A stretch of 61,104 nucleotides of DNA from Bdellovibrionales bacterium CG10_big_fil_rev_8_21_14_0_10_45_34 (GTDB lineage Bacteria > Bdellovibrionota > Bdellovibrionia > Bdellovibrionales > 1-14-0-10-45-34): assembly GCA_002778785.1 (NCBI GenBank), contig PEZS01000004.1:27293-88396 (forward strand), read 5' to 3'. The number at the start of each line of letters is the position of its first letter. The stretch's first letter is position 1. Under the pieces are notes generated by a model. The model worked only from the letters and a program-made list of their open reading frames with translations, made no database searches and was not told where the DNA came from. The translations under genes and the position numbers were made by a program. Shown here in pieces: positions 17,972 through 53,701 of the stretch.

Positions 17972-19480
17972 TTACATGCTTGTGGAGTAAATCCTAGATG
18001 CAAGTGGCGGCACGCCCTCAAAACTGCTATTCAGGGCGGAGTCTGCATTTTCCGTTATAAGGCTTCGCGGGTCCTTAGCGGGTTGAGACTTTTCCTTACC
18101 AAAAACCTGAAGCCCTTTCTTTTTAATCTTTTCTACAAGCGTTGTGCGATTCAAACCTAGCAACATAGCGGCCTGATTTCGGTTTCCGTCAGTTCTTTTT
18201 AGTGCCTCAAGGATGAGATCGTTTTCAAACTTATCAACGAGGTGATTGAAGTCTATTCCAGAAAAAGGAAATTCAACTACTCCGATCGCTGGTAGCATAG
18301 CTTTATTGGCTCGATACTTCGGCGGTAGATCTTCGAGCGTAATTGCACCACTTCCTTTTAGAATCGAAAGCCGCTCGACCAAGTTCTCAAGTTCGCGCAC
18401 GTTACCGGGCCACGCGTACTGGCTCAAGACATCTGTGACTTCGCGAGAATAACTGCCTACCATACGACCCTTTGTGCGGTTGAAAAAATCTCTGAAATGT
18501 TCAAGCAAAATAGCGATGTCGGCTCTTCTTTCTCGAAGCGCGGGGATATGAATAGGGATAACATTGAGTCGATAATAAAGATCTTCGCGAAAAGTACCGC
18601 GCTCAATCATATCTTCTAGGTTTCTGTTGGTCGCCGCAATAATTCGAACGTTAACTTCTACGCTTTTGGTAGACCCAAGCGGTTCAAAGCGCTGATTTTG
18701 AAGTACTCTTAAAAGCTTAACTTGAAGACTTGGTGAGAGCTCGCCAATCTCATCCAAGAAAAGGGTGCCGTTATCAGCAAGTTCAAACCTTCCCACGCGA
18801 TTTTGGGTTGCACCCGTAAATGCCCCCTTAATATGACCGAAGAGCTCACTTTCTAAAAGCTCAGCGGGTATGGCGCCACAATTCACTGGTATTAGTAGCT
18901 CATTTCGCCGACTCGAGTTTTGGTGAATGGCCTGCGCCACTAATTCTTTGCCTGTTCCACTTTCACCCGTCACAAGTACAGTTGCATCGGTGTCACAGAC
19001 TCTCTCGATGAGCGATAACACTGACTTGATCTCTTTGCTTTCACCGATGATATTTGAAAACTTATACCGATGACTTATATGCTGCTTAAGAGCAGTGTTT
19101 TCTGTTTTAAGCTTTTTTTGCTCGATGGCCCTGTCAATCACAACGGCAACTTCTTCTAGATTAAAGGGCTTTGTGATAAAATGGAACGCTCCCCGCTGCG
19201 TGGCCTCAATAGCATTTTGAACAGTGCCAAATCCCGAAAGCACGACGACTTGAGTTTGTGGGTTCTGGCTCCTGATTTCTGTCAAAAACTCTATGCCGTT
19301 TCCGTCAGGTAATCTGAGATCCAAAAGTACAACATCAATCTCGGAGTTTTTGCTAAGTAGTTCTCGAGCTACAAGTAGTGATCCTGCGCTGAACACTTGA
19401 AAGCTGCGCGATTCAAGAAATCTTGTGATGGAAATCCGAATTGACGATTCGTCATCTATAACTAGAACTTGCCCTCTCAT
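17972..19480 (-). CDS. NtrC-family sigma-54-dependent response regulator
   Basis: 502 residues. The receiver domain (1-120) has the acidic pocket VIDDE and phosphoacceptor Asp54 ([11 protein letters not shown]). The AAA+ domain has Walker A GESGTGKE and the sigma-54 contact loop GAFTGA, followed by [15 protein letters not shown] and the arginine-finger region [20 protein letters not shown] Fis-type helix-turn-helix ([16 protein letters not shown]) is followed by a short disordered tail of about 45 residues. It should activate sigma-54 promoters when phosphorylated. It is the last gene of an operon with a kinase-like protein, a HAD phosphatase and MpaA, with a 121-base gap after the kinase-like gene. 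The operator sites are unknown; one sigma-54 promoter candidate in the window is at 43454. Confidence 0.93.
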
Positions 19481-19601: not shown

Positions 19602-21488
19602 TTAATTGACGGTGTCAATTTTAGCTGTCAAAGATTTGGACCTGGATATGCTGTTCCGGTCTATCGGCAAGGAAATACTAAGAAGAAATTGCCCAATATC
19701 GTCGAGTCCTGATGAAACCATGACGTCGAGCTCGGCAAGTATTTGGCGAGCGGCCCCCCAAAGCGGGCCTTGAGGTGCCTCCCTCAAGGCCAACTCTGAC
19801 GGTAAACAAATCGTAATCACTAGACTCATCTCAACAGAAGAAATTTCAATTCTAGGAGGCACTGCCAAACCCGCCTGAGCAATAAGTCGAAACGCCTCTT
19901 GCAAGAAACCAAGCAGAGCTTGAAAGATAAGGGCTTCTATTCCGAAGACAGGGGGGTGCTCATCAGATTGTTCGAGTTGTATGTTCAGCCCTAGAGCTCG
20001 TGTTTGTAACTCTAAGATCTCTAGTACAGCCATAGTGGTGTTCGATAAATCAAAGGATGATTCAGCGATTTCTTCAGGTCGTCTTGTGAAGCTCAATAAC
20101 TTTTCAACCATTGATTTGCATCTGAGCGCGCCTTCATTCATCAGCTGTACATCTGCTTGAATCTCGCTTGGCAAATTTTTATCGGCCATTAGCAGGTGCA
20201 AAAAAGTTAACATGCCGGCAAGGGGATTATTTATCTCATGGGCTATACTAGATCCAATAATTCCTAACTCAGCCATGCGCGCATTTTGGATTTGCTTTCT
20301 TTTTGAGATCTCTCGCTTTGTTACGTCTTTATAAATGTTTACATAGATCGACTGCTTCGACGAAAAGTTAACACGCTGGCTGGAAACTTCTAAATACGCC
20401 CTTTTACTATCGGTATCAGATTCCGTGAGTAAGAAGCGCGAACCCAGACGACAGTTTGGGCATGGCTCATCTCGGTTGAACAGCTTAGCGTAGCATTTAA
20501 CGTTATCCTCAGGCGAAGCAGAAAAGCTCTTGTTAAATCTCACAACACTGTAGTCGCTATCTATAAGTGCAATGGGCTCGTCGAATGCATCAAAAGTAGT
20601 CTTCCACTGAAACTCAATTTCTTCTACTTGCTTCATACTTTCTATTCTTTCAACTGATATATTCACCGCGGGTAGAGTGAGTTGAATCTTCTTGCTTTGA
20701 TCGGCAGAAATTTTGTTAGAAGAAGTTGCCACCAGAACGTAGGCTTCCGCTTTTGCCACAAAATGCAGAATGCGCTGATGGGGCTGAGTCTTTTCTATGT
20801 GGTTAAGCTGAGCCTCGGGCAAAATTCGAATACGAGCCTTTTCTTTCGGGTCGAATATGAGACTGGTGAGTAAGTTTTCGATCTGAAATATCGAACTTGC
20901 TGCCTCTAGGTTTGCTAAAAGTTTGCTGAGAAACTCTAGTTTTTCAAGCTGTCCCTCAATGCGGCGATTAGTCCTTTGAATAGATTCTTCACGTTCATGA
21001 ACTGCGGCTTCGAGAATTTCGTACTGTTGGCTTAGGAGCTCGTTTTGTTCTTCGAAGAGCTGCATAAGAGTTCTATTTTGAATGATTTCTCCGTAGGTTT
21101 CTATGGCCTCGCGAATAGCCACTTCTGCCTCCTCTTGACTGGGGCCGATAAGAAGATGGCTTACTGAAACAGAATTGCAAAGCTGAATGAGTTCGGTGTC
21201 GGGCAATAGAGGGTCAATGAGAATGAACTGAACGTTTTCATAGCTTTTTGTAAACTCCTTGAAAATAAGAATCTGTTCGCTGAGCGGTTGATTTGATCCA
21301 AATAATATTAGCACCTTTAAATTGGCGAGATGTTCAAGTTGGCTTCGCCAAGCGCTTAGCGGCGAGTACATGATGCTATCAAGAGTCCCATACGAAGGCA
21401 AAGCGCCAAGCCAGAGTGTCTCCGCATTCACCCTGTCAGCCGACCCACTTTTTCGCTTTTCTTGCTGATACTTGGATGATTTTGTCAA
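19602..21488 (-). CDS. histidine-kinase-like protein with degenerate ATP-binding domain
   Basis: 628 residues, no membrane segment. An N-terminal receiver-like fold without obvious acidic pocket (about 35-130) is followed by a long coiled coil (about 140-190). A GAF-like region (about 195-295) comes next, then a PAS-like domain with four cysteines including CPNC (about 300-390). The dimerisation helix keeps its histidine (SSIAHEINNPL, His417). The catalytic domain is eroded: the N-box is LGFLQEAFRLI, with Glu where the magnesium-binding Asn should be. DxGxG, the F-box and GxGLGL are absent. It probably cannot autophosphorylate but could act as phosphatase, phosphotransfer partner or sensor scaffold. 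It starts one base after the HAD gene and precedes the NtrC-type regulator. Confidence 0.85.
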   Translation of the reverse strand: MTKSSKYQQEKRKSGSADRVNAETLWLGALPSYGTLDSIMYSPLSAWRSQLEHLANLKVLILFGSNQPLSEQILIFKEFTKSYENVQFILIDPLLPDTELIQLCNSVSVSHLLIGPSQEEAEVAIREAIETYGEIIQNRTLMQLFEEQNELLSQQYEILEAAVHEREESIQRTNRRIEGQLEKLEFLSKLLANLEAASSIFQIENLLTSLIFDPKEKARIRILPEAQLNHIEKTQPHQRILHFVAKAEAYVLVATSSNKISADQSKKIQLTLPAVNISVERIESMKQVEEIEFQWKTTFDAFDEPIALIDSDYSVVRFNKSFSASPEDNVKCYAKLFNRDEPCPNCRLGSRFLLTESDTDSKRAYLEVSSQRVNFSSKQSIYVNIYKDVTKREISKRKQIQNARMAELGIIGSSIAHEINNPLAGMLTFLHLLMADKNLPSEIQADVQLMNEGALRCKSMVEKLLSFTRRPEEIAESSFDLSNTTMAVLEILELQTRALGLNIQLEQSDEHPPVFGIEALIFQALLGFLQEAFRLIAQAGLAVPPRIEISSVEMSLVITICLPSELALREAPQGPLWGAARQILAELDVMVSSGLDDIGQFLLSISLPIDRNSISRSKSLTAKIDTVN

Positions 21489-33345: not shown

Positions 33346-33661
33346 TTCGTGAAGTAGTTTAATAGGTTCGTTTTGGCAAAGATACTTTTTTAGAGGTTAA
33401 AATTAGGGCTCGAAATTCAAAGGTCAGCCCGCTTTGAAACTGAATGCCAAAATCCGCCCCGGGAGGGGAGAGTTTTTGCAATTCGCCGGGCATAGGATAA
33501 GGGAAAGTTATTAGAGTAACCCTTTCTTGAAGCTGGCTCGTGTAATCCCGACAAAGCACTGTAATTCAACTTGAATTTCGAACCCAGTTAGAATAAAAAT
33601 CGGCGATTCAATGATCTCCTGGGGTTGGAGAAAGACAAATAAGGGGGCGAGGGGGAGAACC
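33346..33661 (+). promoter_or_regulatory. divergent control region with 15-bp palindrome
   Basis: This 316-base stretch separates lgt from the large membrane-protein gene. It contains a perfect palindrome AATTCAA-C-TTGAATT at 33563-33577 and a TAGAAT box at 33589-33594, with TTCAAC 18 bases upstream as a weak -35. A hairpin GGGCT/AGCCC (about 33402-33436) and a run of purine-rich ribosome-site-like sequence (33640-33657) are also present. I read it as a probable promoter with an overlapping operator for the plus-strand gene. Confidence 0.4.
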
Positions 33662-36600
33662 TTGCCATCTAGAAAAAATCTTTTTCGGCTATTCAAGAAT
33701 ACAGCAAATTCTTTACTAATATACGCCATTTGTTTTTCTTTAGCTGTTCCTTGCAGAGGTGCAGATTTACCTACTGATCTCGTAATCTCTTCTGTTGGCG
33801 ATGGCATCATAGATGCTATCACTCAGTTAGTTCCCCAAAGTGATACCGGCAATAATGGCCACGGGGGTCTCGGAGAATCTCGAGATCCAGAAAATCTCGT
33901 AGTCGCGTCTACGGATACTGATGAGTCCAAAGTTCAAGAGGATGTCGACTTACTCGAACGTGCTTTCGTTGATCCAACTATAATTGTCTCTTTAGACAGA
34001 TTCCATCTTCTTAACTGGCGATTTACTTCTGGCGTGAATTTTTTAGCAAGAGATTGGCCATCGGTTCAGTTGGTCGCTGAATACGAAGTTGAGAGAAACG
34101 GATTCAAATTTATCGAACATACCCGTGATCTTTGGGGTGTTAGTGAAACTCGAGGCTACGAATCTGAGAACGGAAAGCCTTTTCATCTCGCGCTAAAGAT
34201 TGCTGGGCAAACAGTAGCAACCCTGTATCTTCCTATGCGCTCTGTTTGGACGGCGAACGGCAAGGTATTCTTTAGCCGAGTTCCGACGGAAGAAGAATTA
34301 CAAGCACGACGTATCGAAGCGACCGATGGTATCAGCGAAGAAGAACTTGTAAACGGTGACATTGTCGAGTTCGTAGATCTAAAGCTCTACCGAAAGCTCC
34401 TAGGCACAAAACTCCCACTTCCAGTTTATACTTTGATCGGCGCTCCATTGATGAGGCCTGGCCAAGTAAGCAAAGTCAGCGCGGGTGAAAATGGCGGGTT
34501 TCGAGTTCCAGGTGAGCTGGAACTCGATGGATTGAGCGTGCAGCGGATCAACGAGCTCAATACAGCTCTCTTCAACACTATGGCGGGTCTTACGAACGAA
34601 AAAATGCTAATAAGGACTGAGCCGATTGTAAGAGAACTTGTAGACGAATTTTACTTGGCAGCTGAGGAGGGTGCCGACGCGTCGGCCCAGAAGGTCGACA
34701 ACTTACTTAATAAGAATTCTCTCTCTCAATTTGGCGCAAATGCGAAGTCTTGGCTTGAAAGTGTGAAGGCCAAACTGAACGCAAAATCGCCGCAGGCTAA
34801 CCGCAATAGTGAGACTGTAGAAGAGGGTGAGATTGACGTTCATGCTTTGTTAAAAGAAGCCTCTCAAACACCAGAAAAAACCATCTACGACACTAGGAGT
34901 GAATTGATTGCCGGCATAGTGAGTACGGCCAAGTCTTCACTTTCGAAAAACACATCACAGCGAAAGTTTTTGTCTAGATTAGATCTCTTGCTGACGTCAA
35001 TTTCTCTACCGCAACCGGAAGCTGTACCAAATGTGCTTAAGGCCTTTGGTTTGGTGGTCTCTGGAGTAAAGCAAAAAAGTAAGACTGACATAAAGGAGGC
35101 TACTAAGCATATACTTAACTCTCGATCAGCCGCAGTTTCGGCTTTCTTGGTTTTGGGAATGGGTCTAGGTGCTATCTACCCCGATCAAGTGGCGCAATTT
35201 TACTATCAAAGTATAGATGTAGCGAACGCGGCACTTAAGATGTCGTTTTCGATGATGAAGGGTCTTTGGTACCTCGGCAAAGAGACCTCTTCCGCGACTG
35301 CAACGGGATTTTTAAATCCCAGCGCCGTTTACGCAGCCTACTGGGAGGGCGATGCTAAGGAGCATACCCTAATCGGTTTAACTGCCCTCGTTACGACAAT
35401 CTACTCCATTATCGTAGTCCCTCACTTAGCGACCAACACGTTTTTGTTGGTCCGTGACCTTAAAAAAATGGATCTGCGCCTGAGGAAGGAGCAGGAAGGG
35501 TCTTGGTACAAGGCCTTTCGCTCAGCTTTTATTGAGAGGCAAAGAAGACTTGAAGCTGATTATTTAGCTTCACTGTCAGAAGATTCTCAATCCGCCAAAG
35601 ACAAATCAAAAAAAGATAGGCGGGTTTTTACCGCTAGAGAAAATTTAGAAACCAAAGCGATAGTAGATTATGTATCTGAACAGGGCCGAAGCAGGATTGG
35701 AGACTGGATAGAATCCCTGAATAATCGCTTCATCGCATCTAAAGAGAAAACGAAAAAAGAGATTAGTAGTCTGAGAGCCGCTTTGACGCATTTTCTAGTC
35801 AGCTACGCATCTTTCACTCAGTCGGGTAAGTTTTACGTCACTTTTTGGAACCTTTGGTTTGGTTTTCGGTCATTCGTGCTAATGCCAGTTTCATCGCTCG
35901 CGCTGGGGGTTTTTCCGGGAATTTGGAATTTGGGCCAGAAGTCTTTGATGCCTGCTGACAATAATGGCGGCACAAGAAACATATTGTCGACATTGAAGCA
36001 ATTTCTAACAGACCGAGATGGTTTGAAGAAACTAAAGGCTTCCGAAGAATTTCTTATAGATTTGGAAAAGGCGATTCAGCCTCTGGCTTTGTCAGCAGCT
36101 TTATCTGAGACGATGAAAGATATGACGGATGAAGCGAAAAGAATGAAAGTGATTATGGCAGGGGTTCCGACCGGCTTTACGGATCGAAATATCGACAAAG
36201 CCTTTGGTAGTCGCTCAGGTAGATTTCTTAATCTTTATCAAGAAATTCTTAATGCCACGGTTAGGGCATTCCTGAATGAAAATTCTTCGCTCGATTTAGC
36301 GGCTCTGGAAGGGACTGTTCGGAAAGGCTTGCTATCTGAGGCGAATGTTTCTGGCCTTTTTGCTAGAGTGGATTTACATGAGGTCAAACGAGAGATCCGC
36401 GATCAGGAAGACTCCGTAAGGAGTGCCCGTGAAAAGCACATTATGCGAATCAGAAAGTACGTGCAGAAATTTGATCCGGCAATTAATGGGCAAGTGGAGA
36501 GGATCACAAAAGTTAATGTTCAAAAAAATAAACCACAGGCGATGGCCCGCGCGGTTCGCGCCATGATTGCTTCTAACATTGTTGATAAGCCCATGGAGTT

Positions 36601-37435
36601 GTTTCTGGCATTTTTGTGCTTGGCGGGTATCCAAAGTGGAATCATGGACCCTATTCAAAGTGAAATGTTTAGCGAAAATTCGTGGTTTCACCTTTCAAGG
36701 TATGTATTTGCGACAGGTTTTATCTACGGGGTTTTTAGCGGGGTTTTTGCTGACCCTTGGATGAAGCTACAACAGGATGAGCTTCATGAAGGTAAATTCG
36801 AGGATGCCCCCCCGCGCGGTAAGTTCAAATCTTTTTTAGAAGCCTATCGCTATCATATGTTTAAAAATCCAGAGAACTCATTGAACGCAAATCAATGGCA
36901 CTACATTAAGATCATTTGGAAGAATATGAGGGCGGCGCTTGTAACTACAATGGTTCTAAATTTGATGACGCTACAAAGATTCGACCTAGACTTTTATATA
37001 CTGGGTTATATGTTGTCTTACTTGGTTCCGACGAGTGGGTTAGCCTTCAAAATGGAGCAGGCATTTGAATTGGCTTCTTCACATGTTCTGAGTGCATTTC
37101 CGAAAAGGCTTCAGGCGCACCCGTTGGCACAAGCATATGCGAACAAAGAGGTGGGTGGTAAGCGCGTGAAGTTCAATATGCTCTATAAGCTTTACGAGAA
37201 CGTTCTTGGCTATTTCATCGGAAACTTTGTAGGCATGGAGACTACGCGTTTTGGATCTCGCACCCTCTCTCGCGTTTTGCTTGAAGGCGATACATTTACA
37301 TCAAAGGCAGTAGATGGAATTCGAGCTGCCGCCGAAACAGCCAGTGGTATACCCGGAGTTAATCAAGCGGCCTCGGCCTGCGAGCATCTCATAACCAATA
37401 AGTTTTCGGATTATCCTTATACCCCTCCAAAATAG
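33662..37435 (+). CDS. very large multi-pass membrane protein, unknown function
   Basis: About 1257 residues from the TTG at 33662, chosen because GGGGGAG lies five bases upstream and a signal-like segment follows (LLIYAICFSLAVPC). An ATG at 33611 would add 17 residues without a ribosome site. The N-terminal 450 residues are soluble-looking. A hydrophobic pair lies near residues 515-610 (VSAFLVLGMGLGAIYP; LTALVTTIYSIIVVPHLA). Another set lies near 720-780, and four more near 1000-1150 (MELFLAFLCLAGIQSGI; YILGYMLSYLVPTSG). Long charged helices separate them. No family is recognised. It sits between lgt and flagellin 2, in the flagellin neighbourhood. Confidence 0.8.
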   Translation: MPSRKNLFRLFKNTANSLLIYAICFSLAVPCRGADLPTDLVISSVGDGIIDAITQLVPQSDTGNNGHGGLGESRDPENLVVASTDTDESKVQEDVDLLERAFVDPTIIVSLDRFHLLNWRFTSGVNFLARDWPSVQLVAEYEVERNGFKFIEHTRDLWGVSETRGYESENGKPFHLALKIAGQTVATLYLPMRSVWTANGKVFFSRVPTEEELQARRIEATDGISEEELVNGDIVEFVDLKLYRKLLGTKLPLPVYTLIGAPLMRPGQVSKVSAGENGGFRVPGELELDGLSVQRINELNTALFNTMAGLTNEKMLIRTEPIVRELVDEFYLAAEEGADASAQKVDNLLNKNSLSQFGANAKSWLESVKAKLNAKSPQANRNSETVEEGEIDVHALLKEASQTPEKTIYDTRSELIAGIVSTAKSSLSKNTSQRKFLSRLDLLLTSISLPQPEAVPNVLKAFGLVVSGVKQKSKTDIKEATKHILNSRSAAVSAFLVLGMGLGAIYPDQVAQFYYQSIDVANAALKMSFSMMKGLWYLGKETSSATATGFLNPSAVYAAYWEGDAKEHTLIGLTALVTTIYSIIVVPHLATNTFLLVRDLKKMDLRLRKEQEGSWYKAFRSAFIERQRRLEADYLASLSEDSQSAKDKSKKDRRVFTARENLETKAIVDYVSEQGRSRIGDWIESLNNRFIASKEKTKKEISSLRAALTHFLVSYASFTQSGKFYVTFWNLWFGFRSFVLMPVSSLALGVFPGIWNLGQKSLMPADNNGGTRNILSTLKQFLTDRDGLKKLKASEEFLIDLEKAIQPLALSAALSETMKDMTDEAKRMKVIMAGVPTGFTDRNIDKAFGSRSGRFLNLYQEILNATVRAFLNENSSLDLAALEGTVRKGLLSEANVSGLFARVDLHEVKREIRDQEDSVRSAREKHIMRIRKYVQKFDPAINGQVERITKVNVQKNKPQAMARAVRAMIASNIVDKPMELFLAFLCLAGIQSGIMDPIQSEMFSENSWFHLSRYVFATGFIYGVFSGVFADPWMKLQQDELHEGKFEDAPPRGKFKSFLEAYRYHMFKNPENSLNANQWHYIKIIWKNMRAALVTTMVLNLMTLQRFDLDFYILGYMLSYLVPTSGLAFKMEQAFELASSHVLSAFPKRLQAHPLAQAYANKEVGGKRVKFNMLYKLYENVLGYFIGNFVGMETTRFGSRTLSRVLLEGDTFTSKAVDGIRAAAETASGIPGVNQAASACEHLITNKFSDYPYTPPK

Positions 37436-43250: not shown

Positions 43251-43453
43251 ATTATGCAGACTTCGAATTGCTTTGGTTAACAAAAGCTGTTCGTCATCAA
43301 TTAGTCAGATAGCCTCTTTATAGAGTAATAAATCAAAAAGGTCATGCGCTGAAGAGCTACTTCAGTGCCGCCAAAAGAATATCTTTAACACTGACTCTTC
43401 CGTCAAAATGGTGACACTTTAAATGTTGAACCATGCTGATTGCCACTTTGAGT

Positions 43454-43469
43454 TGGCATCGATGTTGCT
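43454..43469 (+). promoter_or_regulatory. sigma-54 promoter candidate for the TPR/glycosyltransferase/kinase operon
   Basis: TGGCAT-CGATG-TTGCT matches the sigma-54 consensus TGGCAC-N5-TTGCA/T, with the GG and GC dinucleotides exactly ten bases apart. It lies 22 bases before the TPR gene start, leaving a leader of about 10 bases that contains GGGGGG as ribosome site. This is the only good sigma-54 match I found in the gene-free regions of the window. The 240 bases from fliT-like to here contain no gene. Confidence 0.7.
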
Positions 43470-43490
43470 CTTCTCATCAGTGGGGGGCGT

Positions 43491-44279: not shown

Positions 44280-44859
44280 GAGTGAAGATGGGTACTGGAT
44301 TCCTGAAGTAAGCGGACGAACGTATGGAAGTTTGAGAAACCATACGAAAGAGTGCGAAGCCTTTGTCGAAACAATCAGACCTAAGCTGCACGCCTCGAGT
44401 GGACTAATACTTCTTGGTGGTGGGTCAAGTCTTGTCATCAACATGTTAGAGTCAATTTTTGATGGCAGGATAGTTGTTGTTGAGGAAGTTAGTACTTTTA
44501 CGGATTCTGTAATTAGGAACGGGATCAAGACAAGTCCGAGAACATCTATTTGTCAGGCCCACGATGTTGAAGCCGTTCTTGGCGACTTTTCAGTCCGACG
44601 AATTCTTATGTCCCCTTATTCAGTGTTGAACTCACCATCAGCGGTGGCAGCCAAGTCTCCGGTTCTCACTCGAATTTATAAAGTGCTTCTGGCACGCAAC
44701 GAAAAGTTTTTAAGTAGAATGAACGATGTTCGCAAGGGGCTCCAGAAGGCGGGAATTGTCAAAATCGGACCCGGCCACGAGCTAAAGGACTTTGATCTCT
44801 CAGATGGCGTAAAGTCGGGAACAAATGAGTGGCGATTACTAGAGGAATTAACTAGGTGA
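44257..44859 (+). CDS. Rossmann-like protein, possibly related to the flagellar Maf N-terminal domain
   Basis: 200 residues from TTG at 44257, just after AGGGGG; a second TTG six bases on is also possible. A glycine-rich loop (LILLGGGSSLVINMLES) followed by an acidic strand end (IVVVEEV) indicates a nucleotide-binding Rossmann-like fold. Motility accessory factor proteins (DUF115) have a comparable domain, but similarity is by pattern only. It sits between the TPR protein and a GT9 glycosyltransferase, which would suit a glycan-modification role. Confidence 0.55.
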   Translation: MQLIKWIKSEDGYWIPEVSGRTYGSLRNHTKECEAFVETIRPKLHASSGLILLGGGSSLVINMLESIFDGRIVVVEEVSTFTDSVIRNGIKTSPRTSICQAHDVEAVLGDFSVRRILMSPYSVLNSPSAVAAKSPVLTRIYKVLLARNEKFLSRMNDVRKGLQKAGIVKIGPGHELKDFDLSDGVKSGTNEWRLLEELTR

Positions 44860-46547
44860 CAGAGCTCGCTCACAATTTTTCGAAGACAAAGGTACTCATT
44901 TTGAGTCTTCAGAGGCTAGGCGACGTTCTTCAGCAGGTGCCTGTCTTAAATGCACTCGCCGTTGCAGCTCCCCACTGCGAGATAACTCTCGTTTTGGATC
45001 GCTCCTCAATGAAAGCCGCTGCGTTTCTAAGCTCGAGCATTGTCGTCACTCCGTTTGACAGAGATCTCTATCTGGAACGACTCAAAGATGATGAAATTCC
45101 AATCTACTGGTCGTTGGACGCACTGAGTTCCTGGCTGGCACCTCTTCGGCTCAGACAATTTGACGTGATTGCGAATTTAACTCACACAAAAGCATCGGCC
45201 CACTTGGCAACACTCATCGGAGGCTCAAGTTATTTAGGGGCCTATGTTCAAACAGATGGATCTCTGACGGTGGCGGGAGAAGCATTCAAATTGCTTGAAG
45301 CGCTTTATAGTTTTAGAGAAGAAGCGTGGCCAAGTCTGACAGAGTTTCATAAATCTGCTCTTCGCTTACTTGTTAGGCCAGATCGCTACCGGGATTTTGA
45401 CAAATTTTGCGCAAAAGCTGACAGCTTCTGTAGAGGCTCTTCCTGCGTAGACGCAGAAAAGTATGACGTAGTCATACAGGCTTTTGCGTCTGATGAAAAG
45501 AAAACGTGGCCGCTGGAGAACACTCTTGAGTTGCTAGATCTCATAAAAAATCGAGTTCCTCGCGTTAAAGTAGCGATACTTTTGGCGCCAGCGGAAGAGG
45601 AGAAAATTCCAGAGGAAAGATTGCAAAAAGACAACTTCATAGTCTGTGATCTAACCCGGGCTCGAGACCTAATTGAAGGTGCTAGTGTTTTAGTTACTCC
45701 TGACACTTCGATCAAGCACTTGGCCTCGATGACACGTACTCCGGTTATTGAGCTGGCATTAGGGGCTTCAAGTTTCTATAAGTATGGAACAAAAAATAAA
45801 GGCAGCTATATTCTCGCCCCAACGGTCGATTGCTACCCATGTAAGCCGCGGGAGAAGTGTGCTAATGGATTCGCGTGTGCAAGTCAGATCTCTGTTGAAG
45901 TCGTCTTTTCGTTGGTTATGCAGATCCTATCGAACAACGACTTACAGGTGTGGGATGATTCCACTCTCTACGGAACTGAAATCTATGAGTGTATTAACGG
46001 GATGTTTCACGATGTCTGGTATAAGTCGCATTCAAGATCGAAGCAGAGTGTGGAAGCCTATCTTTCGAAATCTTTGCTGCTTTGGAATTTGCGAGGAGAT
46101 CAGGAGTCAAACTTAAGCGATAGAATCATTCAGGATGTTGCAGATGATTGGGTAAAAATAAGCGGCACACACCTCGGAGCTGCGAGAGAGGACCTGATAG
46201 AAATATTCGATCAAGCGAGCCTTGTCGCACGGTGGCTCGATAAGCTGAGGTGGTCGATTGCTGGCGCCTTTGACTCCCAGGTGCTCAAGCTCATTAGTGA
46301 TATTGGCGCTGAGGCTGAAGCTTCCTTTCTGCTTAGAAATATTTTGCTCGAAAGAGTGAAGCTAGTTGAGCTATCAGACAACACATTTGCTTTTAGAAGA
46401 CGTGTGGCAGTTTTGATTGATGAAATTGAAGAAGGAATTCAGTTCACAAAAAAAGTAGCACAGAGAATAGAGAGTACGCTTATACACAGAGGTGAAAATG
46501 ATGAAGTTAGAAGCAGAGGCCTTGAAGAAGGCGCTGAAAAAACTTGA
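44856..46547 (+). CDS. GT9 (heptosyltransferase family) glycosyltransferase with C-terminal extension
   Basis: 563 residues from GTG, overlapping the previous stop (GTGA). The N-terminal Rossmann half has KVLILSLQRLGDVLQQVPVL. The C-terminal half has the donor-site segment LVTPDTSIKHLASMTRTPVIEL and the cysteine cluster DCYPCKPREKCANGFAC seen in many GT9 enzymes. About 190 further residues of helical sequence follow. GT9 enzymes transfer heptose or related sugars from ADP-linked donors, normally to LPS core. Here the neighbours are flagellar and regulatory, so flagellin or sheath glycosylation is a reasonable guess. Confidence 0.85.
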   Translation: MTELAHNFSKTKVLILSLQRLGDVLQQVPVLNALAVAAPHCEITLVLDRSSMKAAAFLSSSIVVTPFDRDLYLERLKDDEIPIYWSLDALSSWLAPLRLRQFDVIANLTHTKASAHLATLIGGSSYLGAYVQTDGSLTVAGEAFKLLEALYSFREEAWPSLTEFHKSALRLLVRPDRYRDFDKFCAKADSFCRGSSCVDAEKYDVVIQAFASDEKKTWPLENTLELLDLIKNRVPRVKVAILLAPAEEEKIPEERLQKDNFIVCDLTRARDLIEGASVLVTPDTSIKHLASMTRTPVIELALGASSFYKYGTKNKGSYILAPTVDCYPCKPREKCANGFACASQISVEVVFSLVMQILSNNDLQVWDDSTLYGTEIYECINGMFHDVWYKSHSRSKQSVEAYLSKSLLLWNLRGDQESNLSDRIIQDVADDWVKISGTHLGAAREDLIEIFDQASLVARWLDKLRWSIAGAFDSQVLKLISDIGAEAEASFLLRNILLERVKLVELSDNTFAFRRRVAVLIDEIEEGIQFTKKVAQRIESTLIHRGENDEVRSRGLEEGAEKT

Positions 46548-46680
46548 GATGATCCAAAAGAAGATTGATGGCAATCAGATCATGAAAAGATCGGATATAG
46601 TTGGCTTAGTGCTATACGAGTGCTTAAAGGAGCAGGTTAGAGATGAAAATACTCGCCCTACAACTCGCCAGATATGGTGA
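46498..46680 (+). CDS. tiny helical protein overlapping both neighbours
   Basis: 60 residues from ATG at 46498 (a second ATG follows directly), with AGAGG just upstream. The start lies 50 bases inside the end of the first GT9 gene, and the stop 38 bases inside the second. The sequence is a lysine-rich amphipathic helix (LEAEALKKALKKLEMIQKKI) followed by a short ordered-looking part (DIVGLVLYECLKEQV). I recognise no family. Coupling signals at both ends favour a real gene. Confidence 0.5.
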   Translation: MMKLEAEALKKALKKLEMIQKKIDGNQIMKRSDIVGLVLYECLKEQVRDENTRPTTRQIW

Positions 46681-48118
46681 CATTGTACTAACTTTAAGAA
46701 GTATTGAAAAGCGTTTTGCGGCTGATCCTTCTTTTGAAGTCGATTTGCTAGTTCGAACTGGGTTTGCAGACATTGTTCCTTCAAGTAACCCTCGACTAAA
46801 AGTTAAGACACTTGATCCACGAGCTTTTCTACAGCCTATCTCAAGTGGGGATGAGTCCGGGATGGACGCCTCACTAAAGACGGTAGAGGAGTGGCTAGAT
46901 CAACTGGCAAAGTGCGATTATGACGGCGTTATAAATTTTAGTTTTTCTCCACTGAGTAGCTTCATCTGTCTCTTTCTGGAAGAGGCGGGGCATTCTGTTA
47001 TTGGTTATTCAAGGCACAGAGACGGAACCTTTAGCGCAAGGGGATTTACTTCTCGCTACTTCTTTTCACAAGTGGGGGTTCTTAAGCCAAATACTACTCA
47101 TTTAACGTGTATCTTTGATCGAATGTTGAATGTAGAGGATGAGATTTGTCGAGATCCAGTGCTTGAGAGAAGTCCTTTTCCGCGGACGCCGGCGAGCTAC
47201 GCGTTGATTCACGTCGGCGCATCAGAAGAATCAAAGCTCTTAAGTGTCGGACAGTATTTTAGAATTGTCGAAGGGTTGACGAGATGGCTGAGTCTTCCAA
47301 TTATTCTTGTTGGCTCAAAAAGAGAATCTTGGCGCTCAGAAGTTTTAACTTGTGGTTTACAAGATAAAAATCTGATTGACCTTGTCGGCAAAACTTCGAT
47401 AACCGAGCTGACTGAGGTTGTCTCTAGAGCAACCGTCGTGATTGGGTGCGATAGCTTGGTGTTGCAATTATCCTCATACTTCAACCGGCCCACTTTTATT
47501 GCAGTGAATTCTCAAGTGAATCCATTTGAAACGGGGCCCACGGCTGAAGCTGGTTTTGTCTATTATGCTACGGACATGTCTGCACTATGCATTCAGGAAA
47601 TCGTATCTGATATTGTACGACACTTGAAGGGATTTGCCCCCAAAAACCATACTCTCAGTTGGTGTAAATCAACTTCGCAACTTGAGCCGACTCCCGAGGG
47701 GATCGGTTTTGAGACATCGAAACAGATCTGGAATGGCCAGTTCGGAGCCTTGATTTTAAGTCGGCCACCTGACCTTCCGGTTGAGTCTTTAAGAGAGCTC
47801 ATTGAGACGGCGTTGACTCAGCTGTACTCTATCAAGAGAAACGGATTCAGCACCGCATCGAGGGGGATTTTAACAAGTGTCGATGAACTTTTTGATATTA
47901 TTGAACGGCAGCATTTAGACTGGATGCCGTGGATCCGTTGGTTCAATATGCTTCGAACTCAAATTGGACCTGGTAACGAAACAGAGACAATCGATAGAAC
48001 GATTAGTTGCTTCCGATTAGCAGATCTTAGTTTGAAAAATCTGACAATTAGGCGAGATGACACACTGGTGGAAGTCAAAAAAGAAGTAAGAGACGATCAA
48101 AACGTTTTACAAATTTGA
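46643..48118 (+). CDS. second GT9-family glycosyltransferase
   Basis: 491 residues; ATG preceded by AAAGGAGC. N-terminus KILALQLARYGDIVLTLRSI matches the GT9 start. The C-terminal half has VGKTSITELTEVVSRATVVI followed by GCDSLVLQLSSYFNRPTFIA, where the usual NDSGPMHLA is altered to CDSLVLQLS. A helical tail of about 120 residues resembles in length that of the first GT9. The pair looks like an old duplication. Substrate is unknown. Confidence 0.8.
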   Translation: MKILALQLARYGDIVLTLRSIEKRFAADPSFEVDLLVRTGFADIVPSSNPRLKVKTLDPRAFLQPISSGDESGMDASLKTVEEWLDQLAKCDYDGVINFSFSPLSSFICLFLEEAGHSVIGYSRHRDGTFSARGFTSRYFFSQVGVLKPNTTHLTCIFDRMLNVEDEICRDPVLERSPFPRTPASYALIHVGASEESKLLSVGQYFRIVEGLTRWLSLPIILVGSKRESWRSEVLTCGLQDKNLIDLVGKTSITELTEVVSRATVVIGCDSLVLQLSSYFNRPTFIAVNSQVNPFETGPTAEAGFVYYATDMSALCIQEIVSDIVRHLKGFAPKNHTLSWCKSTSQLEPTPEGIGFETSKQIWNGQFGALILSRPPDLPVESLRELIETALTQLYSIKRNGFSTASRGILTSVDELFDIIERQHLDWMPWIRWFNMLRTQIGPGNETETIDRTISCFRLADLSLKNLTIRRDDTLVEVKKEVRDDQNVLQI

Positions 48119-48129
48119 CGGAGGTTGAG

Positions 48130-48759
48130 ATGGAGATTCGACATCTCACGCGAAATGAACTTGAAAAAGAGAAGAAGAGTGGGCGGTCAATTGGTGAACT
48201 TCTTTCATCTATCGAAGACGGTTTGATAACTCAGAAACTCTATTTGGTAGCGGTCACCGTTAATGAACAAAAAATCTTTGATCTGGAGGAGGATTCCTTT
48301 CGAGCGCTTTCTCTCGAGGGTGTGTATTCACTTGAAATAACCGTGCAGACGTTATCTGAAATAATTAAAGACACAAGCTCATCTGGCATCCACATGTGTG
48401 AGGAAATCGGCAGAGATATTGAGGTTGTTGCTAAACAGATACAGACAAAAGGCTTGAACGAGCAGAGCGCCCAGACTGTTTCTCGAATTAGCAATGCGCT
48501 CAAAGATTTGTTTGATTTGTGCGATCACTTGGCATCTGCTGCAGAGCCGTTAAAAGTTCATTGGAACTCTGAAGAACCCGGCGGCTTTGGTTTTTTTTCA
48601 CAGACCGTAAATCGAATGGTCGACGAACTGGAGGGTGGCGAATTTGTCCTTCTTTGCGACACGCTATCTTATGATCTTCTTGAGGGGATACTGGCACTAA
48701 AGTATTCTCTTGAAGAGGTGAATCACGATGCGCGTGGAGAGGTCGGTCGCAGAGTCTAG
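48130..48759 (+). CDS. helical protein of unknown function
   Basis: 209 residues from ATG at 48130, chosen because ACGGAGG lies five bases upstream; a TTG at 48115 would add five residues. The protein is acidic and helical throughout, with no signal peptide. It overlaps the start of the kinase gene by 32 bases. Being locked in the operon between a glycosyltransferase and a kinase is the only functional hint. Confidence 0.65.
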   Translation: MEIRHLTRNELEKEKKSGRSIGELLSSIEDGLITQKLYLVAVTVNEQKIFDLEEDSFRALSLEGVYSLEITVQTLSEIIKDTSSSGIHMCEEIGRDIEVVAKQIQTKGLNEQSAQTVSRISNALKDLFDLCDHLASAAEPLKVHWNSEEPGGFGFFSQTVNRMVDELEGGEFVLLCDTLSYDLLEGILALKYSLEEVNHDARGEVGRRV

Positions 48760-50728
48760 CAAAAGAATCGGTTGTCACGGCTTAGGTTCGCGATTGATAG
48801 CTAAGCTTTCGAAGGGCCACTGGCAAATTTCCCACGAGAGCGACATCTCGAAGTTGAAGAATGGTAGCTTTGACCTTTTGATTGTTGATTGGTCTTTCCT
48901 TAAAAAATCAGAAATCCAGGATCAAGAATCCATTCTATATAAGAACAATATCATTTTTAGTGCTCCAACCTGGAACAAACAAGATCTCGGATTAGTGTTT
49001 GCTCAATCTAAATCTACAGTAACCCACAAATTTGTATGCGAAGAAGACCCACAAGAAGTGATTGACAGTTGTTTGCTAAAAGGCTTTCACCAAATGGAGA
49101 TTGCTGAAATTGACAGGGAACTAAAAAAAACGATTCAGATCCAGTTTAAGGAGCTTCAATCTATTACTGGCAATCTTAATACTATCGTCGACTCGCGCAC
49201 CCAAGTATTGAAAGAGAGCTTGAAGAAACTTGAAGATTCGAAGAGTCGACTGCGCATGCGAACGCAAACGTTAGAGCGGTTGTTTGAAACAGAAGATCTT
49301 GAGAAGTGGATTTGGACCCTCAAGAGTCAGCTAACCCCCGCGGATCCAATGCGTGGTCCCATCGTTTTGATAAAGACAGATAAGCTTAACTATATCGCTC
49401 ACAGTCTTGGTCCGAGGGTGCAAGAAAACTTCGTAGGAGACCTTGGTTTTAGTTTGAATAGAGACGTGAAACTGTTGAGCGAACAGGCGCAAAGTAAGCT
49501 AGCGGCGACCATCCAGCGGCCGTTGGGGCGAGTTGCGGGTTGGGCGCTTCCGACGGAAGAGGTAGAGGGCGTTGACTTGCCCGGATTTGGGAAGACGTTA
49601 CAAATCTACCTACTGTTCGAGATCGTTCGCACAAATTTAACTTCACAGAAAGCAAGCCAGAAGGCTCTTTCCAATTGGGTGCTTCCACTGAGTCTTTCTT
49701 TGATGAGAGTCTTAGTTAGGGAGCGCTGGGCAAGCCAACTGGTTCTGTGGGAAAAAACATTCGAATCAATTAAGGAGCCGATTGCACTACTGCAATCAGA
49801 CTTTCAGATTATTCGTTGTAACTCAGCCTTTCAACGACACCTCTCTGAAGAAAAACGATGTTTCGAAATGTTCTTTGGCAAAGCGGCTCCCTGTGATGAC
49901 TGTCCGATGATGGGTTCAAGCACTTCGACTCAAATTAAATCATTGAACTCAATCTTCGAGGTCGAATCGTTTTTTTTGAAGGAACTTTCAAGCAAAAATC
50001 AGAATGTTTTTATTCATCGATACATTGACATAGCTCAAGAGCGTCAACAGCACTCCCAAGATCTTCAATCAGAGAAAATGGCTTCACTAGGTCTTTTGGC
50101 GGGAAACATCGCTCACGAATTAAATAATCCACTTGGAGGAATATCTTCTTTGTGTCAGTTAGTACTATTAGAACCCAATCTATCTGCAGGGTCTCGAGAA
50201 GATGTGACGGAGGTTTTAGAAAGTGCGATTCGGTGTCAGAACATCGTGAAAGATCTGCTGGAATTTGTAAAGACCGACCCAGAACAAGGCGTGCGGACTT
50301 TTGACTGCGGTGAGCTCATAGATAAGACGCTCCCCTTTTTAAAAGTAGTTCTTCGTGAGCACCTCGTTCGAATAGAGAGGCATGATCAAGGCGCACTACT
50401 AACAGGGCCCTTCTCAATGTACCAGCAGGTTCTTTTTAATTTGCTTCACAACGCCGTTCAGGCGACGGAAAGTGGTGGGGAGATCGCTTTACATACGAAG
50501 GTGAACGAGGCAGGGAAAATAGCACTGCAAGTGAGAGACGACGGGAGGGGTGTGGACGAACAGAGTTTGCCTAAAATCTTTGAAGCCTTTTTCACGACAA
50601 AACCCGTGGGCCAAGGGACCGGCCTAGGACTTAGCCTAAGTCGTGCAATTATGCGTAGGCATGGAGGGGAACTTGTTTTCATTCCGACAGAAGGCAAGGG
50701 TGCTTGCTTTGAAATGCAGTTCAAATAG
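48728..50728 (+). CDS. soluble sensor histidine kinase with Cys-containing PAS-like domain
   Basis: 666 residues, no membrane segment; GAGGTG lies eight bases before the ATG. A short receiver-like N-terminal domain (to about 120) is followed by a coiled coil (about 135-190), a GAF-like region, and a PAS-like domain with CDDC (about residues 345-430). The HisKA helix is NIAHELNNPLGG (His463). The ATP-binding domain is complete: VLFNLLHNAVQA, DDGRGVDE, FEAFFTTK and GTGLGLSLS. The architecture parallels the degenerate kinase at 19602-21488. The probable partner is the receiver protein 20 bases downstream. Confidence 0.92.
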   Translation: MRVERSVAESSKRIGCHGLGSRLIAKLSKGHWQISHESDISKLKNGSFDLLIVDWSFLKKSEIQDQESILYKNNIIFSAPTWNKQDLGLVFAQSKSTVTHKFVCEEDPQEVIDSCLLKGFHQMEIAEIDRELKKTIQIQFKELQSITGNLNTIVDSRTQVLKESLKKLEDSKSRLRMRTQTLERLFETEDLEKWIWTLKSQLTPADPMRGPIVLIKTDKLNYIAHSLGPRVQENFVGDLGFSLNRDVKLLSEQAQSKLAATIQRPLGRVAGWALPTEEVEGVDLPGFGKTLQIYLLFEIVRTNLTSQKASQKALSNWVLPLSLSLMRVLVRERWASQLVLWEKTFESIKEPIALLQSDFQIIRCNSAFQRHLSEEKRCFEMFFGKAAPCDDCPMMGSSTSTQIKSLNSIFEVESFFLKELSSKNQNVFIHRYIDIAQERQQHSQDLQSEKMASLGLLAGNIAHELNNPLGGISSLCQLVLLEPNLSAGSREDVTEVLESAIRCQNIVKDLLEFVKTDPEQGVRTFDCGELIDKTLPFLKVVLREHLVRIERHDQGALLTGPFSMYQQVLFNLLHNAVQATESGGEIALHTKVNEAGKIALQVRDDGRGVDEQSLPKIFEAFFTTKPVGQGTGLGLSLSRAIMRRHGGELVFIPTEGKGACFEMQFK

Positions 50729-50747
50729 AATGTTTTACTAGGTGGCT

Positions 50748-51113
50748 ATGAAGATTTTAATTGTCGACGACGAACCTCTAATAAGACGACCGTTAAGAAA
50801 GCTGTTCGAGGGCCGCGGACATACAGTTATGGAAGCTGCTAATGGGTTAGAGGGACTGGATGCGCTGCAAAGCTTTTTTCCGGACATTGTCTTTTTGGAC
50901 GTTGTCATGCCTGGATTGACTGGCCCACAAGTGGTTGAGCAGATTCCCGGCAATTGTGAGGCAAGAGTGTTCTTGATGTCTGCATTTTCTGAGAACAAGC
51001 TTGATTCGCTCATTCAGTCAAAGAAAATTGAGGCTTTTATCAAGAAGCCATTTGAAAATATTGTTAATCTATTGTCTTTGATTGAAGGCGAGTCTCCCAA
51101 GGAGTGTTTATGA
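50748..51113 (+). CDS. single-domain response regulator
   Basis: 121 residues from ATG at 50748 (a GTG two codons upstream is also possible). Receiver features are complete: acidic pocket IVDDEP, phosphoacceptor Asp51 (IVFLDVVMPG), switch serine FLMSAFS and the conserved lysine FIKKPF. There is no output domain, so it should act by protein interaction like CheY or Spo0F. It lies 20 bases after the kinase gene and overlaps the next gene by four bases. Confidence 0.92.
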   Translation: MKILIVDDEPLIRRPLRKLFEGRGHTVMEAANGLEGLDALQSFFPDIVFLDVVMPGLTGPQVVEQIPGNCEARVFLMSAFSENKLDSLIQSKKIEAFIKKPFENIVNLLSLIEGESPKECL

Positions 51114-51475
51114 GCGAGGTCCCCGTACGAAAGAAGGTCGCGGCCTTTCCTTTTGAGATTCGCTTCCTATCAACCCGGCCATCATGCAAGGGGAGCGTTT
51201 TGAAGCTAACAAAAGTAGGACTTATTGTTGAAGCGCAATCGCTATTGTTGACGCCAAACGAACAGGTTGAAGTAGAATTCACCCTTCCGGTATTTAAGGA
51301 CACTATAAAGGCAATCTTGGTTTGTATTAAAACGTATGATCATTCCGACCCCAAGGCCTCCAGTCCCGACACGAAAGTGAGACGATTAACGGAGCTGCAT
51401 TTTAAAAGTATCTCGGCTGTAGCGGAATCAATATTGGATCGCTTTCTAGCCCAATTAAAGAGTGGCGCTCGTTGA
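51110..51475 (+). CDS. PilZ-like protein
   Basis: 121 residues; AAGGAG precedes the ATG. The strand pattern and the segments GSVLKLTKVGLIVEA, EQVEVEFTLPVFKD and LTELHFKSISAVAESILDRF follow the PilZ layout. The c-di-GMP-binding RxxxR and D/NxSxxG motifs are not well preserved (LTKVG replaces the second). It may bind weakly or not at all. It overlaps the response regulator (ATGA) and rsmD. Confidence 0.6.
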   Translation: MSEVPVRKKVAAFPFEIRFLSTRPSCKGSVLKLTKVGLIVEAQSLLLTPNEQVEVEFTLPVFKDTIKAILVCIKTYDHSDPKASSPDTKVRRLTELHFKSISAVAESILDRFLAQLKSGAR

Positions 51476-52026
51476 GAATTATCGGCGGAAAGTTTAAAGG
51501 TAGAAAATTAGTTACCTTTACAGCGGACCACATTCGTCCGACCTCAGATCGCGTTAAAGAGAGTCTATTCAACATTCTTATGACAGAATGGGAAGGCGCT
51601 CGCGTCTTAGATCTTTTTAGTGGAACAGGAAATCTTGCGTTAGAGGCGCTCTCTCGAGGAGCCTCTCAAGTGGTTGCAGTTGAAAGTCATAAAAAGTCTC
51701 TGGAGATCATCGAAAAGAACATATCGCATTTGGGTGTTAAAGGAAGTATCGAACTGAGAGGGCAAGATGTTTTTGCTTTTTTGCAAAAATACAGTGGCGT
51801 ACCTTTTGAGATAGTTCTGGTAGACCCCCCCTTTACCAAGGCGCTTGCAGATTCTGTCATGGTGAGCCTATCGACTTCGGCTACCTTGCACCCATCGACA
51901 ATTGTCGCTATTGAATCCTCTAGAAAAGAAAAACTGATTGATCAGTACGGAAGCCTTTACAGGTACGACCGACGAGAATACAGAGACAAAACATTATCTT
52001 TCTTTCGACAAGGAGATTCAACGTGA
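51472..52026 (+). CDS. rsmD: 16S rRNA (guanine-966-N2)-methyltransferase
   Basis: 184 residues from TTG overlapping the previous stop. Family blocks are present: RIIGGKFKGRKL, IRPTSDRVKESLFNIL, the SAM loop RVLDLFSGTGNLALEALSRGA and the catalytic VLVDPPF. It methylates G966 of 16S rRNA. rsmD-coaD is a common pairing; here it is fused to the end of the signalling operon by overlapping starts. Confidence 0.95.
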   Translation: MRIIGGKFKGRKLVTFTADHIRPTSDRVKESLFNILMTEWEGARVLDLFSGTGNLALEALSRGASQVVAVESHKKSLEIIEKNISHLGVKGSIELRGQDVFAFLQKYSGVPFEIVLVDPPFTKALADSVMVSLSTSATLHPSTIVAIESSRKEKLIDQYGSLYRYDRREYRDKTLSFFRQGDST

Positions 52027-52502
52027 AGGCAGTTTATCCAGGAACCTTTGACCCTCTTACTTTAGGGCATTTAGATATTATTGAGAGAGTAGCGGGGATA
52101 TTTAACGAATTGGTTATTCTTATTGCTCACTCTGTATCAAAGGACGCATGGTTCACTCCAGCTGAGCGCAAGTCATTGCTTGAAGAATCTCTAAAACACT
52201 TGAAGAATGTGACTGTTGATATTCACACGGGTCTGACTGTCGACTATTTAACCGAAAAAAAGGTGAGTGTTTTGGTCCGGGGCTTGAGAGTGATCTCAGA
52301 TTACGAGTATGAAATGTCTATGGCAAATATGAACCACAAGCTTGCAAAGGGTGTGGAAACTCTCATTATCTTTTCTAAGCCAGAGTTCAGTTTTTTATCT
52401 TCTAGAACAGTAAAAGAAGTGGCCTTTCATGGGGGGCCCGTAGAGGGGTTGGTTCCTCCACCCGTTGTTAAAGCGTTAAAAGAGAGGAGTCAGCGACGAT
52501 GA
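52023..52502 (+). CDS. coaD: phosphopantetheine adenylyltransferase
   Basis: 159 residues from GTG overlapping the rsmD stop. AVYPGTFDPLTLGHLDII contains the TxGH nucleotidyl-transfer motif; LVRGLRVISDYEYEMSMA and the final FLSSRTVKEVAFHGG are canonical. It carries out the fourth step of coenzyme A synthesis. Overlaps the aminotransferase start by four bases. Confidence 0.97.
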   Translation: MKAVYPGTFDPLTLGHLDIIERVAGIFNELVILIAHSVSKDAWFTPAERKSLLEESLKHLKNVTVDIHTGLTVDYLTEKKVSVLVRGLRVISDYEYEMSMANMNHKLAKGVETLIIFSKPEFSFLSSRTVKEVAFHGGPVEGLVPPPVVKALKERSQRR

Positions 52503-53701
52503 TTCAGCTTTCTCAAAGAGCTAAAAATTTAAAACCATCGCCCACGTTGGCTCTTGCGGCAAAAGCCCGCGAGCTCCAAGACAGGGGCGAAGATGTTATT
52601 TCGTTAACCGTAGGTGAGCCAGATTGGCCAACCTACGACTTCGTAATAGAAGCTGGAATCGAGGCCCTTTATCAAGGCCACACAAGGTATGTTCCTGCAA
52701 ATGGAATCCCTGAGCTGCGAAAAGTCATAGCTGATGCGTTTTCGAAAGAGACAGGCCTGACAGTTGATTTCAAAAGTCAGGTAACGGTTAGCGCAGGTGC
52801 GAAATTTGTATTGTTCTCAGCCATGCAGTCGCTGATTGACAGTGGTGATGAGGTTATTTGCCCTTCACCCTATTGGGTGAGCTACCCAGCAATGGTCGAG
52901 CTAGCAGAAGGTGTCCCGGTAATTGCTCACTGCTCGAAAGCAGATCAATTCAAACTGACACCAGAAATCTTGGAATCTAAGATTTCCGCTAAGACGAAAT
53001 TGCTGATTCTCAACTCGCCATCTAACCCAACCGGTATGGTGTATTCGGAGCCGGAGTTAAAGGCGCTTTCTGAGGTTCTTGTCACTTACCCAAAAATTAC
53101 TATTTTGAGTGACGATATTTATAATAGGCTCTACTTTTCTCAAAAAGTGGCTCCTCACATTTTGAAGGTGGCTCCGCAGTTAGCTGATCGAGTATTATGT
53201 GTAAACGGAGTTTCTAAGACTTACGCTATGACAGGCTGGCGCTTGGGTTGGGGCATAGGTCCTTCTCACATAATTAAAGCAATGTCTGACTACCAGTCTC
53301 AAAGTGTATCTTGTGCGCCGTCGTTTGCTCAAAGAGCAGCTATTACTGCGATACTCGGGGGCGACAATCGTGTTACCGAAAGTGTTCGTGTGCTCAAAGG
53401 GCGAATCAACAAAGCGGTAGATTGCGCTCAAAAAATCGCGGGACTTGAGCCCTTTGCACCGCAAGGCGCGTTTTATCTTTGGCTAGGAATAGAGCGCCTA
53501 CTTGGCAAAAATCATAATGGGAAGTTGCTGCGTAATTCTAGCGACTTTGCGATGGAGCTGATTGAGTCTGAAAAGGTTGTGACTGTACCCGGGCTCGACT
53601 TTGGTCAAGACGGATATTTACGGCTGAGTGTTGCGCTACCTGATCAACAAATCGTTGAAGCCTTCTCACGCATTGCCCGTTTTGTGTCGGAGCTAACTTA
53701 A
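52499..53701 (+). CDS. class I aminotransferase, probable aspartate aminotransferase
   Basis: 400 residues. ISLTVGEPDWPTYDFV, the substrate loop LNSPSNPTGMVYS, the DDIYNRLYF strand and the PLP lysine in NGVSKTYAMTGWRLGWG (Lys240) place it in subgroup I-beta aspartate/prephenate aminotransferases. Specificity between aspartate and prephenate is not resolved. It ends the long overlapping run that starts at 43491. Confidence 0.92.
   Translation: MIQLSQRAKNLKPSPTLALAAKARELQDRGEDVISLTVGEPDWPTYDFVIEAGIEALYQGHTRYVPANGIPELRKVIADAFSKETGLTVDFKSQVTVSAGAKFVLFSAMQSLIDSGDEVICPSPYWVSYPAMVELAEGVPVIAHCSKADQFKLTPEILESKISAKTKLLILNSPSNPTGMVYSEPELKALSEVLVTYPKITILSDDIYNRLYFSQKVAPHILKVAPQLADRVLCVNGVSKTYAMTGWRLGWGIGPSHIIKAMSDYQSQSVSCAPSFAQRAAITAILGGDNRVTESVRVLKGRINKAVDCAQKIAGLEPFAPQGAFYLWLGIERLLGKNHNGKLLRNSSDFAMELIESEKVVTVPGLDFGQDGYLRLSVALPDQQIVEAFSRIARFVSELT

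Follow-up and report, generated by a model that had tools for sequence, protein, structure and literature searches.

Genes and features of the locus

The window, namely the whole 61,104-nt stretch analysed here, contains two flagellin genes, a FlaG-like gene, fliD, fliS, and a FliT/FlgN-like gene assigned by weak family matches in relatives, in that order, followed by an intergenic stretch and an operon headed by the gene for a TPR protein (Table 1). The fliD-fliS order is also found in Bdellovibrio bacteriovorus (bd0611-bd0612; PMC9140294). A 1274-aa open reading frame with no Pfam match (33611-37435) lies just 5′ of the flagellins. In a search of 141 genomes, the gene order of the locus was retained in the majority of the sampled families belonging to the order; another order of the class has it as well.

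Table 1. Positions of the promoter elements, the operon genes, and the candidate regulators in the window.
Feature	Position	Strand	Basis
Candidate activator: receiver, AAA+ with GAFTGA, FleQ-type HTH (NRTTLVEK)	17972-19480	-	domain search, alignment
Histidine kinase, candidate partner of the activator	19602-21488	-	HisKA; beside the activator in relatives
Degenerate distal box GCCAAAAGAATATC, 6/10	43370-43383	+	lies where relatives carry a second box
Proximal FleQ-type enhancer box (putative) GTCAAAATGGTGAC, 9/10	43402-43415	+	consensus match
Sigma-54 -24/-12 core TGGCATCGATGTTGCT	43454-43469	+	pattern match; kept in 68/69 class loci
TPR protein, 262 aa	43491-44279	+	family search
Maf-N-like protein, 200 aa	44257-44859	+	PF20157 in aligned family members
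GT9-family glycosyltransferase	44856-46547	+	PF01075
Conserved ORF of 62 aa in the gap between the GT9 genes	46492-46680	+	counterparts in relatives
Second GT9-family glycosyltransferase	46643-48118	+	PF01075
214-aa protein	48115-48759	+	no Pfam/NCBIfam match; relatives have a counterpart in this position
Histidine kinase	48728-50728	+	domain search
Single-domain response regulator	50742-51113	+	domain search
PilZ-like protein	51104-51475	+	window protein without match; one relative above the PF07238 cut-off
RsmD-type methyltransferase	51472-52026	+	PF03602
Cytidylyltransferase-like protein, probably CoaD	52023-52502	+	domain search
Class I/II aminotransferase	52499-53701	+	domain search

The initial annotation described every gene up to 53701 as overlapping or nearly touching its neighbor. 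This description held throughout, except that an apparent 95-nt gap (46548-46642) is filled by the 62-aa ORF, which was missing from its gene list and has invariant E and EQ positions in eight aligned members. Class-wide, most gaps in the part running from the kinase gene through the aminotransferase gene do not exceed 30 nt. In two genomes the TPR genes lie away from fliS.

The two GT9 proteins scored 35.5 and 31.9 bits against PF01075, with a cut-off of 22, and the first weakly matched heptosyltransferase structures. The Maf N-terminal domain (PF20157) was detected in 10 of 12 aligned members of the Maf-N-like family at E-values up to 1 (best, 8.6e-6), and not in the window protein, which comprises 200 aa, has no Pfam match, and lacks a catalytic glycosyltransferase domain. 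Its structural model is Rossmann-like, and the best PDB matches were spermidine synthases with low TM-scores. A scan of genome contigs with the TPR protein returned one weak TPR match, in Nostoc.

In Caulobacter, flagellin is docked by the TPR of FlmG (PMC7591256). As in the FlmG and Maf glycosyltransferase systems (PMC4065374), the locus combines TPR, Maf-N-like, and glycosyltransferase functions beside flagellins, fliD, and fliS. In contrast to those systems, the functions here reside on separate proteins, and the transferases belong to the GT9 family. The parallel with the TPR docking of flagellin by FlmG, the Maf-type N-domain homology, and the two GT9 enzymes suggest that the TPR, Maf-N-like, and GT9 proteins may glycosylate flagellin.

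The sigma-54 core and its conservation across the class

The core in front of the TPR gene (TGGCAT-N5-TTGCT) had been proposed as a sigma-54 promoter with exact -24/-12 spacing, and as the sole strong match in the window. Both points were borne out: the GG-to-GC spacing is 10 bases, within the TGGCAY-N5-TTGCW pattern, the ATG of the TPR gene (43491) lies 21 nt beyond the last base of the motif, and there is no other zero-mismatch instance in the window. Across the genome (3.06 Mb, 16 contigs), which has one rpoN gene, we found 12 exact matches versus one for a reversed control pattern. The GC at -13/-12 places the predicted start site near 43480. Scans for sigma-70-like sites and terminators gave counts at chance level.

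A 16-mer in a single genome proves little by itself, and one-mismatch sites in the window were at chance level (four matches versus 3.66 expected). The motif could thus be a chance match or another conserved element, e.g., a fliS-operon terminator, rather than a promoter. The initial annotation had named loss of the motif in close relatives as a refutation, and the relatives speak for the promoter. Of 69 class loci that could be assessed, 68 carry the motif directly 5′ of the TPR gene, 66 of them in strict form. In the first set of relatives, TGGC-N7-TTGC precedes the TPR gene in all 38 loci with an intergenic stretch; in 36 the site is strict, and in the other two the -24 element is not. In each of these 36 loci it is the sole strict match in the whole stretch examined (up to 19 kb); taken together, 36 strict sites occur in 680 kb, all of them in the TPR intergenic stretch, versus 1.2 expected from base composition. 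The second set carries a strict site in 28 of 29 assessable loci, the exception being L159, where the promoter is absent and genome completeness is 83%. The motif was also present in both loci from another order of the class.

The flanks of the motif are nearly random in the alignment of the relatives, which was anchored on TGGC/TTGC. Among the 39 stretches (38 relatives plus the window), position 5 is A in 37 and position 6 is a pyrimidine in all; TGGC and TTGC were fixed by the search, whereas position 5, position 6, and the place before the gene were not. Most operon proteins are only ~25-40% identical among relatives, yet the motif is retained. L160 and L093 have their TPR cluster well away from fliS, and there the motif has relocated with the TPR gene. 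Retention amid otherwise random flanks, joint movement with the TPR gene, and recurrence of the same promoter pattern at fliL (see below) all argue against the two readings without a promoter: conservation across the class, together with the site and box counts, rules out a chance match, while the unconserved flanks and the travelling of the site with the TPR gene exclude a terminator part of the fliS operon. We therefore see hardly any room for a reading without a promoter, and conclude from the sequence comparisons that a genuine sigma-54 promoter very probably lies at 43454-43469.

The motif is also present in a genus without GT9 genes (L142-L148), which excludes a promoter tied to the glycosyltransferases. 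In the leaders between promoter and TPR gene in L142-L150 of this genus, hairpins were noted by eye; some of those in L149 and L150 have AAGGA loops similar to CsrA sites, and L142 and L147 show an attenuator-like hairpin with a T-run behind it.

In 18 loci/genomes from other classes, with fliD-fliS and related downstream genes, no such motif was found at the equivalent locus. Since rpoN was found throughout the phylum, its loss is excluded as the cause; in this sample, the sigma-54 wiring of the operon is thus specific to the class.

Among 58 class loci, 26 had a sigma-28-type match on the side of the flagellins and one had such a match in the TPR intergenic stretch; a sigma-28 site before the TPR gene was rejected on this basis. 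The window's own flagellins have no clear sigma-28 site beside them.

Three other exact sigma-54 sites, with no clear gene directly 3′, precede short C-rich sequences: L020 at ~1500 (G000:C11:281452), L010 on the reverse strand (G000:C1:279877), and L009 (G000:C1:19593). The L020 and L010 sequences terminate in strong hairpins that carry T-runs, their fold z-scores being -6.9 and -4.9, and no Rfam match was obtained. The sequences after these sites are candidate sigma-54-dependent small RNAs.

FleQ-type boxes and the candidate activator

The FleQ box has been reported as GTCaNTAAAtTGAC (PMC6120874) and as inverted GTCAAT/ATTGAC (PMC10723142). In relatives, imperfect copies of GTCAA-N4-TTGAC lie 5′ of the motif, ~52 and ~85 nt from its first base. 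Boxes scoring 8/10 or better are present in 32 of the 39 stretches versus 8.9% of windows drawn at random from these loci, those scoring 9/10 or better in 19 versus 0.7%, and the best of 60 permuted palindromes after GTCAA-N4-TTGAC reached 11 of 39, although these counts are not probabilities, because the box was noticed in these sequences before testing and related genomes are non-independent. The fliL loci provide an independent check. The fliL promoter of the same genome (L018/L198, G000:C9:58858) has a perfect 10/10 box, GTCAATACCTTGAC, 161 nt upstream, and among 30 genomes including this one, the fliL loci have a strict promoter in 28 and a box scoring 8/10 or better in 21. Of the genome's 12 exact sigma-54 sites, only the TPR and fliL promoters have a box scoring 9/10 or better no more than 300 nt away. 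An upstream site for an AAA+ activator is thus present by sequence in the form of putative FleQ-type boxes, which may act as an enhancer of the TPR promoter, and the combination of sigma-54 promoter and boxes would place the TPR operon in the same sigma-54 class as fliL.

The window was said to encode a sigma-54 activator at 17972-19480, and the domains found there agree: a receiver, an AAA+ domain with GAFTGA, and a Fis-type HTH, with the receiver Asp and GAFTGA present in the sequence. The HTH reads NRTTLVEK, versus RRTTLVEK in FleQ (helix RIRRTTLVEKMRKYG, PDB 8p53_C); of the FleQ arginine pair, the second is retained and the first is Asn. This helix is near-invariant in relatives across the order, most genomes of which have an orthologue (~47-62% identity), and, of 29 loci examined in relatives with short flanks, 22 have a related kinase gene next to that of the activator.

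The protein is homologous to FleQ in the AAA+ domain and HTH, but is not FleQ itself. Its receiver is a canonical Response_reg domain (1.6e-26), PF06490, the phosphorylation-incompetent receiver family of FleQ, was not found in the genome, and of the arginines with roles in c-di-GMP binding by FleQ (R144, R185, and R334; PMC10723142), the first two are replaced by S and Q and the third is R, in the alignment to 8p53_C. With the adjacent kinase, these features suggest that the protein reads DNA in a FleQ-like manner and appears to be under phosphorelay rather than direct c-di-GMP control. The receiver-AAA+ architecture is shared with the FlbD/FlgR-type activators of flagellar sigma-54 genes; the NCBIfam FlgR and FlbD models match 17972-19480 far below their cut-offs, so that it is not a member by cut-off, and it differs from that type in its FleQ-type HTH and box.

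The FleQ-type boxes at the promoter and the FleQ-type HTH make the promoter-activator link stronger than was known to the initial annotation, and the 17972-19480 protein is most likely the activator of the TPR promoter, judging from these sequence features. Another activator might instead work at the boxes of a real sigma-54 promoter, with 17972-19480 mainly serving other genes. The genome has at least 12 activators with intact GAFTGA, one of the two FleQ recognition-helix arginines is retained in 17972-19480, and its orthologue with the same HTH persists in genomes without a FliS match, suggesting that it is not purely flagellar and probably has further targets. However, of the 12 activators examined in the genome, 17972-19480 alone carries the TTLVEK HTH of FleQ, the boxes fit the FleQ consensus (PMC6120874, PMC10723142), and helix and boxes are conserved over the same class. 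We consider control by another activator unlikely.

Proposed control of the operon and its meaning

Our favored reading, a sigma-54 promoter at 43454-43469 with FleQ-type boxes, activated by the 17972-19480 protein and driving a flagellin-modification and two-component operon, is held as a whole with good confidence, as a proposal from sequence. RpoN-RNA polymerase would bind the core and start near 43480, and the AAA+ activator, bound at a FleQ-type box ~70 nt 5′ of the start, with a further box ~104 nt 5′ of it in the majority of relatives, would remodel the complex. The 17972-19480 protein would be this activator, with the kinase at 19602-21488 as its likely partner, placing the operon under phosphorelay control. 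The front of the transcript would encode the TPR protein, the Maf-N-like protein, and the two GT9 enzymes, a probable cytoplasmic flagellin-modifying set, followed by the kinase, the receiver, and the PilZ-like protein; judging from the tight packing, it would also extend over rsmD, coaD, and the aminotransferase. The flagellin-modification/signalling operon would thereby probably be switched on together with the flagellum.

The proposal that one promoter controls glycosylation, signalling, and three housekeeping genes stands overall, and its housekeeping clause rests on the tight, conserved packing, which suggests that rsmD, coaD, and the aminotransferase may be co-transcribed from the TPR promoter. 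Alternatively, the sigma-54 promoter may drive the genes from TPR to the receiver, with rsmD, coaD, and the aminotransferase transcribed chiefly from promoters of a different type within the operon. Such internal promoters are likely in the case of coaD, because this gene should be essential at every stage, and its sole control by the TPR promoter would be odd. In line with this alternative, gaps exceed 100 nt in some relatives (before rsmD, 6/33; before coaD, 2/50), and two genomes have their TPR genes away from fliS. On the other hand, median gaps in the rsmD-coaD-aminotransferase part are -8 to +5 nt, most being 30 nt or less, and sigma-70-like sites are at chance level. We regard the matter of internal promoters as evenly balanced.

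The sigma-54 flagellar promoters of the FleQ/FlrA systems (Pseudomonas, Vibrio) have the same -24/-12 core and an upstream 14-bp GTCAA...TTGAC box, and the fliL operon is among their targets, as here. In contrast, two boxes ~32 nt apart are found here in many relatives, and the target is a TPR/GT9/two-component/housekeeping operon. The attack-phase promoter map of B. bacteriovorus, probably a related organism, has flagellar gene control in common with this system; a FliA (sigma-28) motif was reported in two thirds of its promoters and no strong motif in the remainder, and sigma-54 appears there only in a reference title (PMC3627812). Our literature text search, which covered few subscription papers, found no report of sigma-54 flagellar gene control in Bdellovibrio.

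The individual parts, i.e., the promoter, the box, the activator, and the operon genes, are known in kind. As far as this search shows, what is new is the class-wide promoter-enhancer unit with the operon that it drives, and the likely link of this unit to a FleQ-like reader without the c-di-GMP site of FleQ. Tentatively, FleQ control may have been rewired across the class, with a FleQ-like reader, a phosphorelay receiver in place of c-di-GMP, and a sigma-54 regulon by which flagellin modification, the relay, rsmD, and coaD are tied to the building of the flagellum; we lean somewhat against so wide a claim. The class in question probably includes the predatory Bdellovibrio group.

With its defined box and a specific candidate for its activator, the sigma-54 promoter found across the class would provide a second tier of flagellar control beside FliA. 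Furthermore, a FleQ-type enhancer code is apparently used by a regulator without the c-di-GMP site of FleQ, and a likely flagellin-modification module, together with housekeeping genes, would be linked to the building of the flagellum.
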